This document shows positions 2,658 through 23,410 of a DNA stretch of 33,088 bases, piece by piece (position 1 is the stretch's first letter; each line of letters begins with the position of its first letter). This DNA is from Burkholderiales bacterium. Its GTDB lineage: Bacteria > Pseudomonadota > Gammaproteobacteria > Burkholderiales > Burkholderiaceae_C. The stretch is taken from NCBI GenBank assembly GCA_028868895.1, contig JAGWTP010000040.1:1-33088 (forward strand). Reading direction: 5' to 3'. A program made the position numbers and the translations under genes. A model generated the notes under the pieces. It did not search any database. It had not been told where the DNA came from and saw only the letters and a program-made list of their open reading frames with translations.

Positions 2658-2721
2658 CGTTGGCAAGTCCGTCCACGTGGACCCGCGCGGGACGCGCGGG
2701 CTCCGGGAAACCGAGCGGCGA

Positions 2722-3108
2722 TTATTGCCGCACGCGCCGGTACACCGGTCCCCACAGCGGGTGGCCGGCCTCCGACTTGGTCAGCGCGAAGGCCGGGTCG
2801 GCGGCGCGCGCGGCGCGGAACTCGGCCTCGCAGGCCGGGATGCGATCGCTGGTGCAGTCGATGAACGCGAGCAGCTTGTGCGCCATCGCGCGGTCGCGCG
2901 GCGAGGCCAGGCCGAGCTTGAGTGCCTGCATCAGGTGCTGCTCGGCGCCCGGGTATTGCGCGTCGTCGTAGGCGCGCATGCCGGCGAGCAGCGCCTTCTC
3001 GGCCGGGCGCTCGGCGACGTCGAGCAGGCCTTGCGGTGCGGGCGGTGCCACCGCACAGCCACCGAGCAGGGAGGCCAACACAAGGGTCCAGGCAAGCGGT
3101 GCTTTCAT
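2722..3108 (-). CDS. Small lipoprotein resembling TssQ-family T6SS-associated lipoproteins
   Basis: 128 residues. The N-terminus MKAPLAWTLVLASLLGGC is a type II signal peptide with lipobox LGGC (Cys18), so the mature protein should be lipidated. The rest is helical and tetratricopeptide-like: residues 36-85 (EKALLAGMRAYDDAQYPGAE, then HLMQALKLGL) read like one or two TPR hairpins. There are two Cys at 85 and 93 and a conserved-looking C-terminus with GHPLWGPVYRRVR. From memory this layout matches lipoproteins annotated as TssQ, found next to Ser/Thr kinases in beta- and gammaproteobacterial T6SS loci; I could not run a search. The ATG at 3108 is two bases from the kinase stop, so the pair is almost certainly co-translated. 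No other T6SS gene is visible. Confidence 0.7.
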   Translation of the reverse strand: MKAPLAWTLVLASLLGGCAVAPPAPQGLLDVAERPAEKALLAGMRAYDDAQYPGAEQHLMQALKLGLASPRDRAMAHKLLAFIDCTSDRIPACEAEFRAARAADPAFALTKSEAGHPLWGPVYRRVRQ

Positions 3109-3110
3109 GG

Positions 3111-4766
3111 TCAGAACCTGAACTTGAGGCTGACGGGTTGGTCGGCGGTCACGTTCACCACCGCGCGCTGCGGCGGCAGGTCGGTGTTGCGGATGACGAT
3201 CTGGTGCTTGCCTTGTGGCAGGCTCAGCTCGGTCAGCGGCGGTGCGGTGCCTGCGGGCTTGCCGTCGACCTCGACCTCGCCCCACGGGCTGATCGCGATG
3301 CGCACCAGGCCATTCGGGACCGGTGCCGGCGCCGCTGCCGGGGGGGCTGCCTTCGCGGCGCGTTCGCGGGCCTCGCGCGCACGCTTTTCCTTGGCGGTTT
3401 CGTTCGACGCTCGGGCGGCGACTCCGACGGCCTTGGCGGGCGCAGCTCCCGGTGCGGCTGCGGCGTGGGTGTCCGGCGATGAAGCCGGCGGCGGCGTCAT
3501 CGTGGCCGCGCCGACCGCGCCGATCGGGCCGCTGGCCGCCGACGCGGTGGCGCCCACCGCGACCGAGGACGCGTTGGCCGCGGCCGGCGCCGCTGCCGCC
3601 GCCGCGGGCACGGCCGGCGCAGCGCCGTGGTTCGAGGCCCGCGTGGCCCAGAGCAGCGCGCCGATCACGAGTGCACCCAGCGCCGCCGCGGCGATCCACG
3701 GGAGCCGCTGCTTCGGGCTGGAGCCGGTCGGCGAATCGCCGTCGGAATTGACGGTGTTCTCGTCGAGCCACTGCCGCAGTTCGCGCGAGAACGCGCGTGC
3801 CGAACGGTGCCGGTGCTCAGGCTCTTTGGCGATCGCCTTCGCGGCGATCGCCGCCAGCGCTTCGGGCACCGCCGGGTCGACCACGTTCGCCGGCGACGGC
3901 TCGTGCGTCAGCACGGCGGTGGTGATCTCTTCGAGGGTGGCACCGCGGAACGGCTTCAGGTCGGTGAGCAGCTCGTACAGCACCACGCCGAGCGAGAACA
4001 CGTCGGCGCGGCGGTCGGCCGGCTGCTGGCGCACCTGCTCGGGTGCCATGTAGTAGGGCGAGCCGGCGGCGATGTCGCCGCCCGGTGCCTGGGCGTCGTG
4101 ACGGTGGGCGACGCGGGCGATGCCGAAGTCGAGCACCTTGGGCTGGGTGCGCCCGATCATGAAGATGTTGGCCGGCTTGATGTCGCGGTGGACCACGCCC
4201 TTGCTGTGGGCGTAGCCGAGCGCGTCGGCCACGCGCCGCACGATCAGCGCCGCCTGCGCCGGCGTGGCGCGCCAGCCCTCCTGGCGCAACTGGCGCAGGT
4301 CGCGGCCCTTGAGCAGCTCCATCGCGATGTAGGCGCGGTTGTCGCTGATGCCGGCGTCGAACACCGTCACGATGTGCGGGTGGCTCAGCCCGGCCGCGGC
4401 GCGCGCCTCGTTCAGGAACAGCGCGTTGAACGCCTCGCGCTCGGCGTCGTCGATCTCGACGTGCAGCGTCTTCACGGCGATCAGGCGCGACAGCAGCGGG
4501 TCGTGGGCGGCGTATACGGTGCCCAGGCCGCCTTCGCCCAGGCGGTGCTTCAACGCGTAGCGGCCGATGTGACCGATGGTCGGGATCGGCTCGTCGGCCA
4601 AGCCGCGCGGCGGGTCGGAGAACGCCGCCGCCGGGCCGCGCATCACGTGCATGTCGGCGTCGTCCCACAGCGCCATGTCGGCGGGCAGGCTCGGCGGCAG
4701 GCTCGGGGCCGAGCCGGGTTCCGAGTCGTTCGACACGGGTTCGGGAGGCGGGCTGGACAAACTCAC
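3111..4766 (-). CDS. Transmembrane Ser/Thr protein kinase (Hanks type) with C-terminal PEGA-like domain
   Basis: 551 residues from a GTG at 4766, which has an in-frame TAA four codons upstream; ATG at 4676 is an alternative, and neither start has a clear ribosome-binding site. Residues 71-335 are a complete eukaryotic-like kinase domain: glycine loop GEGGLGTVY (77-85), catalytic Lys in IAVK (99), Glu120, HRDIKPAN (193-200), DFG (213-215) and GSPYYMAPE (235-243). All catalytic residues are present, so activity is expected. One membrane helix lies at about 355-374, followed by an Ala/Pro-rich linker and a periplasmic PEGA-like beta domain (about 465-551; IAISPWGEVEVDGKPAGTAP). The adjacent TssQ-like lipoprotein suggests the kinase senses an envelope or T6SS-linked signal, but its target is unknown. 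Confidence 0.9.
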   Translation of the reverse strand: MSLSSPPPEPVSNDSEPGSAPSLPPSLPADMALWDDADMHVMRGPAAAFSDPPRGLADEPIPTIGHIGRYALKHRLGEGGLGTVYAAHDPLLSRLIAVKTLHVEIDDAEREAFNALFLNEARAAAGLSHPHIVTVFDAGISDNRAYIAMELLKGRDLRQLRQEGWRATPAQAALIVRRVADALGYAHSKGVVHRDIKPANIFMIGRTQPKVLDFGIARVAHRHDAQAPGGDIAAGSPYYMAPEQVRQQPADRRADVFSLGVVLYELLTDLKPFRGATLEEITTAVLTHEPSPANVVDPAVPEALAAIAAKAIAKEPEHRHRSARAFSRELRQWLDENTVNSDGDSPTGSSPKQRLPWIAAAALGALVIGALLWATRASNHGAAPAVPAAAAAAPAAANASSVAVGATASAASGPIGAVGAATMTPPPASSPDTHAAAAPGAAPAKAVGVAARASNETAKEKRAREARERAAKAAPPAAAPAPVPNGLVRIAISPWGEVEVDGKPAGTAPPLTELSLPQGKHQIVIRNTDLPPQRAVVNVTADQPVSLKFRF

Positions 4767-15796: not shown

Positions 15797-17047
15797 TCAG
15801 CGGTAGACCGGGAAGTCGCGGGTCAGTGCCGCCACCTTGGCCTTGACCGCGGCCGTGGTCGCCGCGTCGTTCGGCCGGTCGAGCACGTCGGCGATCAGGT
15901 GCGCGGTCTGGCGCGCCTGGTCTTCCTTGAAGCCGCGCGTCGTCATCGCCGGCGTGCCCAGGCGGATGCCGCTCGTGACCATCGGCTTTTGCGGGTCGTT
16001 CGGGATGCCGTTCTTGTTGCAGGTCATGTGCGCCGCGCCGAGCAGGTTCTCGGCTTCCTTGCCGGTCAGGCCTTTCGGGCGCAGGTCGACCAGCATCACG
16101 TGCGACTCGGTGCGGCCGCTGACGATGCGCAGGCCGCGCTCGATCAGCGTGTCGGCGAGCTGAACCGCGTTCTTCGCGACCTGCTGCTGATACACCTTGA
16201 ACTCGGGCTGGAGTGCTTCCTTGAAGGCCACCGCCTTGGCGGCGATCACGTGCATCAGCGGGCCGCCCTGGATGCCGGGAAAGATCGCGCTGTTGATCTT
16301 CTTGGCGATGGCTTCATCGTTCATCAGCACGATGCCGCCGCGCGGGCCGCGCAGGCTCTTGTGGGTGGTCGAGGTGACGACGTCGGCGTGCGGCACCGGG
16401 TTCGGGTAGACGCCGGCGGCGATGAGGCCGGCATAGTGCGCCATGTCGACCATGAAGTACGCGCCCACGTCCTTTGCGACCTTCGCGAAGCGCGCGAAGT
16501 CGATGCGCAGGCTGTAGGCCGAGGCGCCGGCGATGATGAGCTTGGGGCGGTGCTCGTGGGCCAGCCGCTCCATCGCGTCGTAGTCGATCGCTTCGGCGGC
16601 GGTCAGGCCGTAGCTGACGACCTTGAACCACTTGCCGCTCATGTTGAGCGGCATGCCGTGGGTCAGGTGGCCGCCTTCGGCCAGGCTCATGCCCATGATC
16701 GTGTCGCCGGGGTTGAGCAGGCCGAAGAACACCGCCTGGTTGGCTTGCGAGCCGGAGTTGGCCTGCACATTGGCGTATCCGGCGCCGAACAGCGCCTTGA
16801 GCCGGTCGATCGCGAGTTGCTCGACGATGTCGACGTACTCGCAGCCGCCGTAGTAGCGCTTGCCGGGGTAGCCCTCGGCATACTTGTTGGTCAGCTGCGT
16901 GCCCTGCGCGGCCATCACGGCCGGCGAGGCGTAGTTCTCGGAGGCGATCAGCTCGATGTGCTCTTCCTGGCGCTGGTTCTCGCGCTGGATGACGGACCAG
17001 AGATCGGGGTCGACGTTGGCGATCGTGGACAGGGCGCGGTCAAACAT
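15797..17047 (-). CDS. glyA: Serine hydroxymethyltransferase
   Basis: 416 residues, the normal length. It interconverts serine plus tetrahydrofolate with glycine plus 5,10-methylenetetrahydrofolate using PLP. Family motifs are [20 protein letters not shown] (24-43), [20 protein letters not shown] (54-73), [16 protein letters not shown], the PLP-Lys region [17 protein letters not shown], and [20 protein letters not shown]. The ATG at 17047 is preceded by an AAGAGGA ribosome-binding site about 9 bases upstream. A structured leader at 17116-17246 matches the ZTP riboswitch, which is a natural regulator of one-carbon genes including glyA. Confidence 0.97.
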
Positions 17048-17115
17048 GGTTGGCAGTCCTCTTCAAGCGAAGTCCTCGGGGGGTTCGAGCGCATGCGCGC
17101 GGCACACGACCCCGA

Positions 17116-17246
17116 AGCTGCCCAGGCGAACGGCTGAACGGCGACCCCCGCAGGCAAGCGCCGACCGCGCTTCCCGGTGGTGACCCACCTCAGGCCCCGG
17201 GCTCCGCGTTGGAAGAGGGGCCGCATCGCCAGTTGCGCGGCCCGGT
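17116..17246 (-). promoter_or_regulatory. ZTP (pfl) riboswitch in the glyA leader
   Basis: Read on the minus strand, the leader begins with the stem GGGCCGC/GCGGCCC (17237-17243 with 17218-17224) enclosing GCAACTGGCGAT, which corresponds to the conserved GNGACUGGCG segment of the pfl RNA. It continues through GGTGGGTCACCACCGGGAAG (about 17170-17189), matching the conserved CCACCGGGGAGCG block. It ends with CGCCTGGGCA (17119-17128), the conserved CGCCUGGGCR block that binds the ligand and forms the pseudoknot. All three conserved blocks occur in the right order and strand, about 70 bases before glyA. ZTP riboswitches sense ZMP/ZTP accumulating on folate shortage and switch on purine and one-carbon genes. 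No U-tract terminator follows, so control of translation or Rho access is possible. Confidence 0.82.
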
Positions 17247-18224: not shown

Positions 18225-18491
18225 CGTAATTCTCCTTGGTTCGCTTTGTGGCCCCGTGGCGACCCCGGCTCGATGACCTGGGACGCTGAAAGGCGGCAGC
18301 GATAATTGTTGGCCGGTGCAACCGGAGCCCAGAAAGTGCGGCGAGGCCTGGGTCAGACCGGCAATCCGCACCATCTCCGGCCTTCATTTCGAAGCGCGGG
18401 TTAACCCTAGTGCGTCAGTCAGAGCCGAAATCTAGCAAGTGGCCTCATAACTGGTCAAGACTATCAAATTTGTTTGTCACTACAAATTCGT
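18225..18491. promoter_or_regulatory. Divergent promoter region between the lytic transglycosylase and ubiD
   Basis: This 267-base region separates two divergent genes and must carry promoters for both. The ubiD-proximal part (about 18430-18491) is clearly richer in A and T than the rest of the window (ACTATCAAATTTGTTTGTCA and nearby), as expected for promoter DNA. I could not place a convincing -35/-10 pair on either strand. No gene is seen in it. Confidence 0.4.
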
Positions 18492-20069
18492 ATGAAATAC
18501 CGCGACTTGCGTGACTTTATGGCTGGCCTGGAACGCGCCGGTGAGCTCCGACGCGTCGCAGAGCCAGTGTCGGTGCGGCTTGAGATGACAGCGGTCAGCG
18601 ACTTCGTTTTGCGCGCCGGCGGCCCGGCGCTGTGGTTTCAACAGCCCGCCGGTTACAAAATTTCAGCCTTGACAAACCTGTTCGGTACCCCGCGGCGGGT
18701 CGCGCTGGGCATGGGCGCGGCCGATGTGGGCGAGCTGCGCGACGTGGGTCGACTGCTCGCGAGCCTGAAGGAGCCCGAGCCGCCGAAGGGCGTGAAGGAC
18801 ACCGGCAAGCTGTTACAAATGGCCAAGGCGCTGTGGGACATGAAGCCCGCCGGCGTGCGCCGCCCGGCCTGCCAGGAGGTCGTCCTTGAAGGTCCGGATG
18901 TCGACCTGGGCCTGCTCCCGGTGCAGACCTGCTGGCCCGAAGACGCCGGCCCGCTGATCACCTGGGGCCTGGTCGTCACGCGCGGGCCTCAGGGCGTGCC
19001 GAGCGCGCGGGCGCGGCAGAACCTGGGCATCTACCGCCAGCAGGTGATCGGCCCGCGCCGGGTGATCATGCGCTGGCTCGCCCACCGCGGCGGCGCGCTC
19101 GACTTCCGCGACTTCGGGCTGGCCAAGCCTGGCCAGCCGTTCCCGATCGCGGTGGCGCTCGGCGCCGACCCGGCGACGATCCTCGGCGCGGTGACGCCAG
19201 TGCCCGACACGTTGTCGGAATACCAGTTCGCCGGCCTGCTGCGCGGCAGTCGCACCGAGGTGGCCGACTCGGGCGTCGGCGACGCCGGCGTGATGCTGCA
19301 GGTGCCGGCCAGCGCCGAGATCGTGCTCGAGGGGCACGTTCCGGTGGCGGCCCAGGGCTATGCCGGCGTCAGCGAGCACGGCGTGAAGCTCAAGGAAATC
19401 GGCGGCTACCTGCACGCGCTCGAAGGCCCGTTCGGCGACCACACCGGCTATTACAACGAGCAGGACTGGTTCCCGGTGTTCGAGATCGGGCGCCTGACCC
19501 ACCGGCGCGACCCCATCTATCACTCCACGTACACCGGCAAGCCGCCCGACGAGCCGGCGATCCTGGGCGTGGCGCTCAACGAAGTGTTCGTGCCGATCCT
19601 GCAGAAGCAGTTTCCCGAGATCGCCGACTTCTACCTGCCGCCCGAGGGCTGCAGTTACCGGATGGCGATCGTCAGCATCCGCAAGAGCTACCCCGGCCAC
19701 GCCAAGCGGCTGATGTTCGGGATCTGGAGCTTCCTGCGCCAGTTCATGTACACCAAGTTCATCGTCGTCACCGACGACGACGTCGACATCCGCGACTGGA
19801 AAGAAGTGATCTGGGCCATCACCACCCGGGTCGACCCCGTGCGCGACACCCTGCTGGCCGAGAACACGCCGATCGACTACCTCGACTTCGCCTCGCCGGT
19901 GAGCGGCCTGGGCGGCAAGATGGGGCTGGACGCGACGAACAAGTGGCCCGGTGAAACCCGTCGCGAGTGGGGCCGCGCGATCCGCATGGACCCGGCGGTC
20001 GAGCAGCGCGCGCAAGGCCTGTTGAACATGATCATGAAACCGGCGCCACGACAAGAGGGCACACGATAG
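18492..20069 (+). CDS. ubiD: UbiD, prenylated-FMN-dependent 4-hydroxy-3-polyprenylbenzoate decarboxylase
   Basis: 525 residues from the ATG at 18492 ([20 protein letters not shown], the conserved N-terminus); a TTG at 18474 would add six residues. UbiD decarboxylates the ubiquinone precursor using prenylated FMN supplied by UbiX. Conserved regions include [13 protein letters not shown] (about 155-167), the [20 protein letters not shown] segment, [33 protein letters not shown] and the late [11 protein letters not shown]. The length and motifs match functional UbiD rather than the broader aromatic decarboxylases. ubiX is not in the window. The stop is followed by a candidate small RNA and a strong terminator. 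Confidence 0.94.
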
Positions 20070-20079
20070 TGCGCGGCGC

Positions 20080-20108
20080 TTGAAGATCGCGCCGAGCTGA
20101 CCTACTTT
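20080..20108 (+). promoter_or_regulatory. Possible promoter of the small RNA after ubiD
   Basis: TTGAAG (20080-20085) and TACTTT (20103-20108) are separated by 17 bases, with TTTAAT overlapping at 20106-20111. This would start transcription near 20115, just before the structured region. The -10 match is only moderate. Confidence 0.4.
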
Positions 20109-20111
20109 AAT

Positions 20112-20247
20112 AGAGCCTGCATGCAGGTACTTCAACCGGCGCAGTCCCTGCGCTATAGGAGCCCCGGACCTCATTCCTCTGGAGCCCCAAACGGTGGCGA
20201 GAGCCACCCGCCCCTCTGTCCGCAAGGCCAGAGGGGTTTGTCATTTT
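20112..20247 (+). ncRNA. Candidate structured small RNA between ubiD and the RND pump gene
   Basis: About 135 bases between converging genes contain a row of compact folds. They are the palindrome CCTGCATGCAGG (20116-20127); a GCGCAG/CTGCGC hairpin with a 3-base loop (20139-20153); a GGTGGC/GCCACC hairpin with a GAGA tetraloop (20193-20208); and a strong terminator (20211-20247). Between hairpins two and three lies an apparently single-stranded segment with the octamer GGAGCCCC twice (20158-20165, 20181-20188) and a CU-rich stretch ACCTCATTCCTCT that could pair with ribosome-binding sites. A promoter-like pair precedes it. No known RNA family was recognised; it could instead be only the structured 3' end of the ubiD message. 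Confidence 0.45.
20211..20247 (+). terminator. Rho-independent terminator downstream of ubiD / small RNA
   Basis: CCCCTCTG (20211-20218) pairs perfectly with CAGAGGGG (20229-20236) around a 10-base loop, and TTTGTCATTTT follows on the plus strand. The minus-strand side has no T-run, so it serves plus-strand transcription. Confidence 0.8.
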
Positions 20248-20320
20248 GGCCGCCCCTTTCGCACGAGCGGGCCGCGCCCGGACCGACCGGCGCCTTACCG
20301 CGCGCCGAACGGACCTGGAC

Positions 20321-23300
20321 TCACGCTGAAAGCGTGGGGCCGCCGCCCGGCGCGGCACCCGCCGCCACCGGCAGGTCCGTGCCGGCAGCGCGCTTGCGGT
20401 GGTCGCTGCCGATGAACATGTACATCGCCGGCACCACGAACAGTGTGAACAAGGTGCCGATCGCCATGCCGGTGAAGATGACGATGCCCATCGCCTGACG
20501 GCCGCCCGCGCCGGCGCCCGACGCGATGACCAGCGGCACCACGCCGAAGACCATCGCCGCGGTCGTCATCAGGATCGGCCGCAGCCGCAACCCGGCGGCA
20601 GCCTCGATCGCCTCGCGCTTGGACTTGCCGGCGCGCTGGAGTCGATTGGCCACTTCGACGATCAGGATGCCGTGCTTGCTGATCAGCCCCATCAGCGTGA
20701 CCAGGCCGACCTCGGTGTAGATGTTGATCGAGGCGAAACCCAGGAAGATGAAGATCAGTGCGCCGAACAGGGCCAGCGGCACCGAGACCAGGATCACCAC
20801 CGGGTCGCGGAAGCTCTCGAACTGCGCTGCCAGGGCGAGGAAGACGATGATCACCGCGAAGGCGAAGGTCAGCGCGAAGCCGCCCGACTCCTGCATGAAC
20901 TGACGCGACTGGCCCGAATAGTCGACCGTGTAGCCGGTCGGTGCGACCTCGGAGACGGCCTTGCGCAAGAACGCGAGCACGTCGCCCTGCGCCTGCCCGG
21001 AGACGCCCGAGATCGTGACCGAGTTGAGCTGCTGGAAGTGGTTGATCGACTCCGGCACCACGTTCACTTTCAGGCTCGCCACGGTGCTGGCGGGGATCAT
21101 GCTGCCGCCGGGCGCCTTGAGGTAGTAGTCGAGTACGTCCGAGGGGTTGAGCCGGTCGACCTGCAGCACCTGCGGGATCACCTTGTAGGAGCGCCCGGCG
21201 ATGGAGAAATAGTTGACGTAGCCGCCGCCGAGCGCCGCGCCGAGCGCGTTGCCGACGTCCTGCTGCTTCAGGCCCAGCGTGGCGATCATGTCGCGGTCGA
21301 CGACCACGGTGGCCTGCGGCTTGTCGAGCTTGAGGTCGGCGTCGGCGAAGTAGAACAGGTTGGCCGCCTGTGCCTTGGCCATCACCTGCTCGGCCACCGT
21401 GTTGAGGTTCTGGAACGGTTCGGTCGACGTGATCACGAACTGCACCGGCAGCCCCGACGCGCCAGGCAATGGCGGAAACTGGAAGGCCGCGACCCGCGCC
21501 CCCGCAATGTGGTTCCAGCGCGCCTGCAATACCTGCTGCAACTCCTGCGCGCTGCGGGTGCGCTGATCCCAGGGTTTGAACAACACGCCGCCGATGCCCT
21601 GGTTCACGGTGGGCACCCCGGTGATCTGGAACATCTGCTCGTACTCGGGGATGGCGTGCGCGATCTTGAACGCCTGTTCGGCGTAGGTCTGCATTTGCTG
21701 CGCGGTGGCGGTGGGCGGGCCGGTGACGAAAGCGGCCACGATGCCCTGGTCTTCCTCGGGTGCGAGCTCCGACTTCGACATCTTGAACATCAACCCGGCA
21801 CAGCCCATCAGGATCGCGCCCATCACGATCAGCACCGGCCAGGTTTCGAGCAGCCCGTGCAAGGCGCGGTGGTAGCCGCGCTGGACTCTGGCGAACACAC
21901 GGTCGATGGCCTGCACGAAGCGGCCCTCGTCCTGCTCGGGCTTGAAGATGCGCGAGGACATCATCGGCGACAGCGTCAGCGCCACCACGCCCGACACCGC
22001 CACCGCGCCGGCCAGCGTGAACGCGAACTCGGTGAACAGCGCGCCCGTGAGGCCGCCCTGGAAGCCGATCGGCACGTAAACCGCGATCAGCACCACGGTC
22101 ATCGCCAGGATCGGGCTGCCGAGTTCGCGTGCCGCCGTCAGCGCCGCCTGCATCGGCGGCATGCCTTCCTTCATGTGGTGGTCCACGTTCTCGACCACGA
22201 TGATCGCGTCGTCGACCACCAGTCCGATCGCCAGCACCAGCGCCAGCAGCGTGAGCAGATTGATCGAGTAGCCCAGCGCGAGCATCATGAAGAACGTGCC
22301 CACCAGCGACAGCGGCATCGCGATCACCGGCACCGCCACGGCCCGCAGGCTGCCCAGGAACAGGTAGATGACCACCGTCACGATCAGCAGCGCCTCGACG
22401 AGCGTCTTGACCACCTCGTTGATCGACGTGTTGATGAACGCGGTGGCGTCGTAGACGATCTGCCCGGTCAGGCCGGTGGGGAGTTGCTGCTGGATCGCGG
22501 GGAAGGCCTCGCGCACGCGCTTGGCCACGTCGAGGATGTTGGCCTCGGGGGCCACCTTGATGCCGATGAAGACCGAGCGTTTGCCGCTGAAGGCGACGTT
22601 GAAGTCGTAGTTTTCGGAGCCCAGGCTGACGGTGGCCACGTCTTGCAGCCGCACCACGGTGTCACCGCTGGTCTTGACCGCCAGGTGCTTGAACTCCTCG
22701 ACCGTGTGCAGGTCGGTGCCGGCCGTCAGCGGCACGCTCACCATCTGGCCCTTGGTCGCACCGACGGCGGCGAGGTAGTTGTTGGCGGCCAGCGCCGTGC
22801 TCACGTCGGTGGCGGTAACGCCGAAGGCGGCGAGCTTGGCGGTGTCGAGCCAGGCGCGCAGTGCGAACTGGCGCGCCCCCAGCAACTCGGCGGTCTGCAC
22901 GCCGTCGATCGAATCGAGCTTGGGCTTGACCACCCGCACGAGGTAGTCGGTCACGTTGTTGGTGGGCAGCGTGTCGCTGTAAAAGCCCATGTACATCGAG
23001 TCGATGGTCGAGCCGGTCTGAACCGTGAGCACCGGCTGCTGCGCCTGCGCCGGCAACTGGTTCCTGACCGAGCTGATCTGCGTGCTGATCTCGGTCAGCG
23101 CACGATTCGCGTCGTAGTTCAGGCGCAGCGTGGCGGTGATGGTCGACACCCCCAGGCTGCTGGACGACGACAGGTAGTCGATGCCCTGGGCCTGGGCGAT
23201 CGCCGACTCGAGCGGCTGGGTGATGAACCCGGCCACCGTCTGCGCATCGGCGCCGTAGTAGGCCGTCGAGACCGTGACGACCGCGTTCTGGGTGCGCGGA

Positions 23301-23410
23301 AACTGGTTGACGGGCAAGCTGAACAACGAGCGCAGGCCCAGCACCAGGATCAGCATGCTGATCACCATCGCCAGCACCGGCCGGCGGATGAAGATGTCGG
23401 TGAAGTTCAT
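20321..23410 (-). CDS. RND efflux pump inner-membrane transporter, HAE1 family
   Basis: 1029 residues, the normal AcrB/MexB length. It is a proton-driven trimeric pump that exports hydrophobic or amphiphilic compounds through an adaptor and outer-membrane channel. The N-terminus MNFTDIFIRRPVLAMVISML is typical of the family. The proton relay is present: D400 and D401 in IGLVVDDAIIVVEN of the fourth helix, and the Lys of LMGLISKHGILIVEVANRLQ in the tenth. Two large periplasmic loops (about 35-330 and 555-860) separate the helix bundles. Substrate cannot be assigned from sequence. Start is 10 bases after the adaptor stop, forming an operon. The end faces ubiD across about 250 bases. Confidence 0.94.
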   Translation of the reverse strand: MNFTDIFIRRPVLAMVISMLILVLGLRSLFSLPVNQFPRTQNAVVTVSTAYYGADAQTVAGFITQPLESAIAQAQGIDYLSSSSSLGVSTITATLRLNYDANRALTEISTQISSVRNQLPAQAQQPVLTVQTGSTIDSMYMGFYSDTLPTNNVTDYLVRVVKPKLDSIDGVQTAELLGARQFALRAWLDTAKLAAFGVTATDVSTALAANNYLAAVGATKGQMVSVPLTAGTDLHTVEEFKHLAVKTSGDTVVRLQDVATVSLGSENYDFNVAFSGKRSVFIGIKVAPEANILDVAKRVREAFPAIQQQLPTGLTGQIVYDATAFINTSINEVVKTLVEALLIVTVVIYLFLGSLRAVAVPVIAMPLSLVGTFFMMLALGYSINLLTLLALVLAIGLVVDDAIIVVENVDHHMKEGMPPMQAALTAARELGSPILAMTVVLIAVYVPIGFQGGLTGALFTEFAFTLAGAVAVSGVVALTLSPMMSSRIFKPEQDEGRFVQAIDRVFARVQRGYHRALHGLLETWPVLIVMGAILMGCAGLMFKMSKSELAPEEDQGIVAAFVTGPPTATAQQMQTYAEQAFKIAHAIPEYEQMFQITGVPTVNQGIGGVLFKPWDQRTRSAQELQQVLQARWNHIAGARVAAFQFPPLPGASGLPVQFVITSTEPFQNLNTVAEQVMAKAQAANLFYFADADLKLDKPQATVVVDRDMIATLGLKQQDVGNALGAALGGGYVNYFSIAGRSYKVIPQVLQVDRLNPSDVLDYYLKAPGGSMIPASTVASLKVNVVPESINHFQQLNSVTISGVSGQAQGDVLAFLRKAVSEVAPTGYTVDYSGQSRQFMQESGGFALTFAFAVIIVFLALAAQFESFRDPVVILVSVPLALFGALIFIFLGFASINIYTEVGLVTLMGLISKHGILIVEVANRLQRAGKSKREAIEAAAGLRLRPILMTTAAMVFGVVPLVIASGAGAGGRQAMGIVIFTGMAIGTLFTLFVVPAMYMFIGSDHRKRAAGTDLPVAAGAAPGGGPTLSA

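Follow-up and report, generated by a model that had tools for sequence, protein, structure and literature searches.

Comparative analysis of the gap downstream of ubiD in a window of 33,088 nucleotides (the whole stretch of DNA analyzed, from a Burkholderiales bacterium) points most likely to a lineage-specific, highly structured, trans-acting small RNA (sRNA). We regard it as very probable that the element is a real, independently transcribed RNA gene; the explanation taken as a whole, namely a stand-alone sRNA gene with its own promoter that acts in trans as a regulatory RNA, we hold to be likely, with less assurance. In this explanation a sigma70-type promoter situated just 3' of ubiD (20080-20108) would direct transcription from near 20115, and the resulting transcript of about 133 nt is predicted to fold into four hairpins and an intrinsic terminator, ending near 20247. 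The RNA would then exert its regulatory action in trans, most likely through pairing with mRNAs once an RNA chaperone has opened it. A sequence-only reading of this DNA had proposed an independent small RNA gene at this place, a claim that promoter, fold, strand and distribution strongly support. Comparison of the related copies shows the fixed place of the putative promoter, the fold, the strand, the clustering of the RNA in one lineage and its separability from ubiD.

On the + strand, positions 20080-20247 of the window read as a promoter followed by four hairpins (one at the 5' end, a second that is tight, a third that is long and imperfect, a fourth with a tetraloop) and a terminator (Table 1). 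The individual parts that had been described from the letters are all present: the promoter-like pair, the palindrome CCTGCATGCAGG (20116-20127), the tight hairpin GCGCAG-UCC-CUGCGC, the GNRA-capped hairpin (GAGA cap in the window), the terminator, with its stem at 20210-20237 followed by a U-rich tail, and two occurrences of GGAGCCCC (20158-20165 and 20181-20188). As a single sequence, the stretch 20110-20250 folds better than its shuffles (z -3.48, with 1 in 200 as good). A mechanical consensus scan calls no promoter and no terminator at the element because the -10 box matches the consensus poorly and the tail has no dense T run; it is conservation that raises the element above chance. Just 5' of the -35 box, a block around the ubiD stop (GACAAGAGGGCACACGATAG, window 20050-20069) recurs with small changes in most same-genus copies; family-wide, none of its columns exceeds 0.4 bits, and it could be a genus-level regulator site.

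Table 1. Coordinates of the predicted sRNA, its parts and its neighbors in the window
Feature	Positions	Strand	Evidence
ubiD, UbiD decarboxylase family, upstream neighbor	18474-20069	+	Pfam UbiD, UbiD_C, UbiD_N; ORF
-35 element TTGAAG	20080-20085	+	T 98%, T 88%, G 93% (121 copies)
-10 element TACTTT, 17-nt spacer	20103-20108	+	T 97%, A 98%, last T 98% (121 copies)
sRNA, about 133 nt; predicted start near 20115	20115-20247	+	covariance model, covariation
Hairpin H1 (palindrome of the sequence-only reading)	20115-20128	+	5/5 pairs two-sided, 99.4% of cells paired
Hairpin H2, GCGCAG-UCN-CUGCGC	20138-20154	+	6/7 pairs two-sided, 90.0% of cells paired
Hairpin H3, two GGAGCCCC copies paired together	20158-20188	+	8/10 counted pairs two-sided, 89.4% of cells paired
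H3 apical loop, CCUCAUUCC, CU-rich here, variable elsewhere	20169-20177	+	loop census
Hairpin H4, GGUGGC-GAGA-GCCACC	20193-20208	+	6/6 pairs two-sided
Intrinsic terminator stem and U-rich tail	20210-20247	+	9/9 pairs two-sided
RND pump gene, convergent	20321-23410	-	Pfam ACR_tran

With the gap as the query, blastn gave matches in 12 of 100 genomes, the window's own included, and a covariance model (A1) built from those 12 copies found matches in 122 of the 399 genomes of the family, belonging to 47 of 141 genera, some of the searched genomes having themselves supplied training rows. Each genome holds one match, except for a weak second match in one of them (G022). This second match (L136, 26 bits) and the weak hit of another genome (L135 in G153, 33 bits) have neither the promoter nor ubiD and do not enter the promoter counts, leaving, with G153 out, 121 credible copies from at least 46 genera. 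The occurrence of a single credible match in each of 121 genomes of so many genera suggests function. An order-level search with a model made from 100 copies matched 6 of 399 genomes, namely two members of the family and four weak hits (27.8-31.2 bits) without ubiD in their loci, which we judged to be chance, and the one match among 369 genomes at class level was the window's own. There was no convincing match outside the family in these samples (399 genomes of the order and 369 of the class, an uncounted share of them from the family), and a search of plasmids gave no match. A DNA pattern scan of named genomes yielded 42 loci, of which 26 are Sphaerotilaceae by NCBI name: Rhizobacter (9), Rubrivivax (7), Piscinibacter (5), and one each in Methylibium, Azohydromonas, Roseateles, Aquabacterium and Pseudaquabacterium. 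The other 16 comprise one from Rivibacter, one from a "Rhodoferax" MAG, two from Burkholderiaceae MAGs, and 12 with no family or genus name.

Of 30 genomes of the family taken from outside the blastn and model matches, ten have a ubiD match, which is full-length in nine. All nine full-length loci were rescanned (positions 2701-3600) and show no promoter pattern near the ubiD end, and the best model score on them, 15.5 bits, lies inside ubiD itself, so that none has a credible copy. On a ubiD tree of 52 rows, including these nine, the presence and absence of the RNA requires 2 changes, as against 8.5 when shuffled (0 of 500 as low). On this quick, unrooted tree, in which the branch making the loss is moderately supported, one gain and one loss of the RNA would be the simplest story. 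The RNA clusters in one lineage, the large Sphaerotilaceae branch of soil and freshwater bacteria.

The region upstream of the RNA is conserved in a manner suggestive of a promoter. Counted relative to the start of the covariance model (window 20110), the T-T-G of positions -30 to -28 and the T-A...T of positions -7 to -2 reach 88-98% identity in the 121 credible copies. Elsewhere upstream only the C preceding TTG, the A-A that follows it and some columns around the -10 box exceed 0.4 bits. The pattern TTGNNN-(16-18)-TANNNT lies upstream of 114 of the 121 copies, whereas it occurs in 1 of 1997 equally long control stretches taken further upstream, mostly in ubiD, and in 1.1% of shuffled upstream regions. 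The spacer is exactly 17 nt in 107 of the 121 (0 of 1997 controls; 0.3% of shuffles). Seven of the 121 copies do not have the pattern; among the 42 loci of named genomes it is present in 37 and absent from five. By its conservation, then, the sRNA appears to have its own promoter, from which a start about 7 nt past the -10 box, near 20115, is predicted; blastn matches begin close to this predicted start, at 20111-20115, in 6 of 11 relatives. At one related locus (L021) a perfect inverted repeat, CACGATCAAAGATCGTG, ends 1 nt before the TTG of the -35 box, and a looser form is found at another (L022); the repeat in L021 is a possible operator.

The five-helix structure was scored on an alignment (A3) of 100 of the 121 credible copies, picked by the author to fit a size limit, from which a spurious minus-strand row (L075) present in the preceding version (A2) was excluded. 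Conservation of the stems in related genomes had been named beforehand as something on which the proposal would depend, and 34 of 37 tested base pairs indeed show two-sided compensatory change. Two-sided cells number 360; shuffled alignments average 94.8, none of 500 reaching 360, and sliding the structure gives 27-54. On A3 94.1% of cells are paired, as against 83.8% when shuffled; A3 was fitted to a model and so leans towards structure, but 12 of 38 pairs already show two-sided changes in the unfitted first alignment of 12 rows. When the A.C and C.A positions of H3 are set aside, the helices hold 184 G-U cells as against 21 A.C cells, 51 of the 184 being supplied by the outermost terminator pair, an excess that fits an RNA transcribed from the + strand.

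The individual helices differ in what has been retained. The exact palindrome of H1 is kept in just 11 of 100 copies, and the two-sided changes of this hairpin therefore indicate that an RNA hairpin rather than a DNA palindrome is being kept. For the same reason we disfavor the candidate reading of the palindrome as a DNA operator. The outermost pair of H2 is broken in 55 of 100 copies, and the H2 loop is a 3-nt UCN in 91 of 100. The H4 loop is of the GNRA type in 15 of 100. The U-rich tail averages 64% U and, together with the covarying stem before it, appears to be an intrinsic terminator of the sRNA; it may also end the ubiD message. The structured ends that had been proposed for the RNA are supported.

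The sequence-only reading had taken the two GGAGCCCC copies to be open and exposed, and had seen in the region between the structured ends a CU-rich core resembling an anti-ribosome-binding-site. Neither is supported by comparison. The two copies form opposite strands of a single covarying helix, H3, pairing as G-C, G-C, A.C, G-C, C-G, C.A, C-G, C-G. The bases at the mismatches (A20160, C20163, A20183, C20186) have an unpaired probability of 0.75-1.0, and the remaining twelve of the 16 GGAGCCCC bases one of 0.26 or less. The strands vary in compensation, with GGAGC/GCUCC, GGAAC/GUUCC and GGCA/UGCC as examples, the last two from some relatives. At the first mismatch A.C occurs in 55 of 100 copies, A-U in 19, G-C in 15 and G-U in 7; the pair fails in 57 and is standard in 43. 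The other mismatch, C.A, persists in 88 of 100 copies, and its position was excluded from the pair count. The exposed part of the window's RNA is the 9-nt apical loop CCUCAUUCC (unpaired probability 0.92-1.0), to which the CU-rich part is confined, and CCUC, CUCC or UCCU is found in the H3 loop in 10 of 100 copies only. Together with the low retention of the GNRA cap and of the exact palindrome, this means that the anti-ribosome-binding-site argument rests on parts that are not kept.

The tie of the RNA to ubiD is close and can nevertheless be broken. In 116 of the 123 model hits ubiD lies upstream on the same strand, with a median computed distance of 57.5 nt from its stop to the model start (four values are negative, the stop running past the start), and in 35 of the 42 named loci ubiD ends within 400 nt upstream. 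The other seven named loci comprise three at the edge of their stretch, three in which the RNA is separated from ubiD, and L137, whose ubiD match stops early. The seven model hits without an upstream ubiD are the two weak ones, three near contig ends (L047, L051, L070), and two more (L039, L123). Two of the three genomes with contig-end hits have no ubiD match, and the third has ubiD on another contig. L039 is the same place as L163, where an opposite-strand ORF of 704 aa, with a nitroreductase domain in its middle, separates the RNA from ubiD and at its far end overlaps the last part of the ubiD ORF; the promoter here reads TTGTAA-17-TATTCT. At L123, in genome G102, about 8.2 kb lie between the RNA and ubiD; here the RNA has a divergent protein-kinase ORF for a neighbor and is followed by a DNA polymerase III alpha-type gene. 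Both L163 and G102 have retained promoter and fold alike. At two further loci (L159, L160) genes for PEP-CTERM proteins have come to lie between ubiD and the RNA. An intervening opposite-strand gene in one case and a gap of 8.2 kb in the other, with promoter and fold kept in both, indicate that the element is not merely a ubiD terminator and that the RNA is separable from ubiD.

With respect to its mode of action, we give base pairing in trans about an even chance and each of the other modes a clearly lower one, with a small remainder for modes other than those discussed below. Hfq and a protein with a ProQ domain are both encoded in this genome. The RNA appears to be non-coding: a small protein was considered and rejected, as the longest ORF has no common start (the commonest offset occurs in 19 of 121 copies) and an ATG at the position found in the window occurs in 15 of 123. 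The positions that are both at least 85% conserved and mostly unpaired are few: U36 and C37 of the H2 loop, A48, the C.A mismatch, C68, and four positions of the U-rich tail. Nowhere are three such positions adjacent; the longest runs, of two, are formed by U36 with C37 and by neighbors within the U-rich tail. With so few conserved unpaired positions, no ordinary antisense seed shared across the lineage is visible. The choice is then between targets and seeds that vary from genus to genus, a helix that a chaperone opens, and an RNA that is read by a protein. A crude duplex test against five gene starts of the window gave none that was convincing, the best, acrA, being equaled by 14 of 294 controls by cofold and by 55 of 294 by duplex.

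The foremost alternative is a structured RNA that acts mainly by binding a protein, through sequestration or as a scaffold, or as a structural RNA, rather than by means of an antisense seed; recognition would proceed via the kept identity of the helices, the C.A mismatch of H3 and the UCN loop of H2. What is kept in the family is mostly helical, with this mismatch and the 3-nt loop among the kept features, and loop and linker positions are mostly variable. Against this stands the best-known case of a protein-sequestering RNA, the CsrA sponge, which is disfavored here: no CsrA match was found in this genome (a control search was positive in 3 of 14 genomes), and in both GGAGCCCC copies the GGA is part of helix H3, with its A unpaired. 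On balance we think action through protein binding possible, if unlikely. A more specific and somewhat more speculative form would be an RNA that acts by its shape, arose once in the Sphaerotilaceae branch, and recruits or sequesters a protein via the C.A mismatch helix and the UCN loop; if this were true, it would represent a new kind of regulatory RNA and not one more antisense sRNA.

The persistent linkage to ubiD invites the further suggestion of a 3' UTR sRNA with its own promoter that works mainly in cis or by feedback on ubiD and the supply of ubiquinone. The duplex with the ubiD start is, however, unremarkable (137 of 294 controls match it by cofold, and all 294 by duplex), and the linkage is breakable, as L163 and G102 attest; we hold such an action to be doubtful. 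Still less probable, and rejected here, is that the element is only the 3' UTR and terminator of ubiD, its stems protecting or ending that message with no separate transcript. The same linkage speaks for this, as does the fact that, by eye, the element holds the terminator nearest ubiD in the window, but the promoter is conserved at a fixed place, copies persist at L163, at G102 and behind PEP-CTERM genes, and nine genomes of the family have a full-length ubiD with no credible copy beside it. A riboswitch-like cis leader of the downstream gene, to which a compact conserved fold ending in a terminator would be suited, is scarcely credible since in the few loci checked (six read by Pfam, one of them without a hit, plus the window and G102) that gene varies in family and strand: a convergent RND pump in the window, and elsewhere msrA-type, carboxylesterase, TPR/glycosyltransferase, DUF748/AsmA, MerR and DNA polymerase III alpha-type genes. 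As a separate observation, the DNA polymerase III alpha-type gene of G102 (L123 2-1825, -) follows the sRNA on the same strand, and at L097 the ORF after the sRNA (2073-2939, +) is ImuA-like by eye, with no Pfam hit; these downstream genes possibly represent a mutagenesis-cassette neighborhood.

The preferred reading, a trans-acting sRNA with its own promoter, can be set against the RNAs already described. No known family had been recognized in the letters, and the Rfam scan suggested at that time agrees, giving no match: with Rfam 15 no family reaches its gathering threshold at the element, a local search to E 10 gave three matches, all sub-threshold (the best 17.8 bits against 45), and a search of the loci of 19 relatives to E 1 gave one sub-threshold hit, outside the element. 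The only family found elsewhere in the window is the ZMP/ZTP riboswitch (RF01750, 46.3 bits, 17113-17246, -), directly 5' of an ORF (15797-17047, -) which, from its sequence, we take to be glyA. We rate the RNA as an uncatalogued new family of a known kind. Among the closest systems already described is type I of the 3' UTR-embedded sRNAs, those with their own promoter, such as DapZ and MicL. The defining arrangement, an RNA just after a protein gene whose terminator it could share, appears to be present in the window and in 116 of the 123 hits, but not at L163 or G102. Like DapZ and MicL, the RNA has its putative promoter within or next to the end of a protein gene, and those sRNAs share the terminator of their host gene's message; unlike in their case, the tie to the host gene is breakable here, and the RNA shows no long single-stranded seed that is conserved.

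The open-licence literature holds no description of this RNA among the matches listed, nor, again among the matches listed, of any sRNA from the group of Rubrivivax, Roseateles, Methylibium, Rhizobacter, Piscinibacter and Aquabacterium; the accessible part of PMC3110155 makes no mention of ubiD. The present analysis adds a well-supported RNA family to these genera, and an Rfam entry could be started from its alignment and model. As far as the available parts of the sources go, the nearest described betaproteobacterial cases that we have seen, judged by description, are the biofilm sRNAs ncS01-ncS63 of Burkholderia cenocepacia and S17 of Bordetella pertussis. The former, in the portion of the report at hand, are short, with stable folds and mostly with intrinsic terminators, and seven of 15 candidates have unpaired CU-rich stretches (PMC5688073). 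The RNA described here resembles them in its short predicted transcript, stable fold and intrinsic terminator, and differs in that its CU-rich loop is confined to a few members; RF02278 and RF02423, the Rfam families of their table, have no match here. S17, according to the available part of its report, is a conserved betaproteobacterial sRNA with a sigma70-type promoter by the ubiquinone gene coq7, whose pairing sites lie in an invariant stretch of 27 nt that begins near a C/U-rich loop (PMC11722255). On that description, the RNA downstream of ubiD lies at another locus and shows no such invariant stretch, and it has in common with S17 a sigma70-type promoter, here a putative one, and an adjoining ubiquinone gene.
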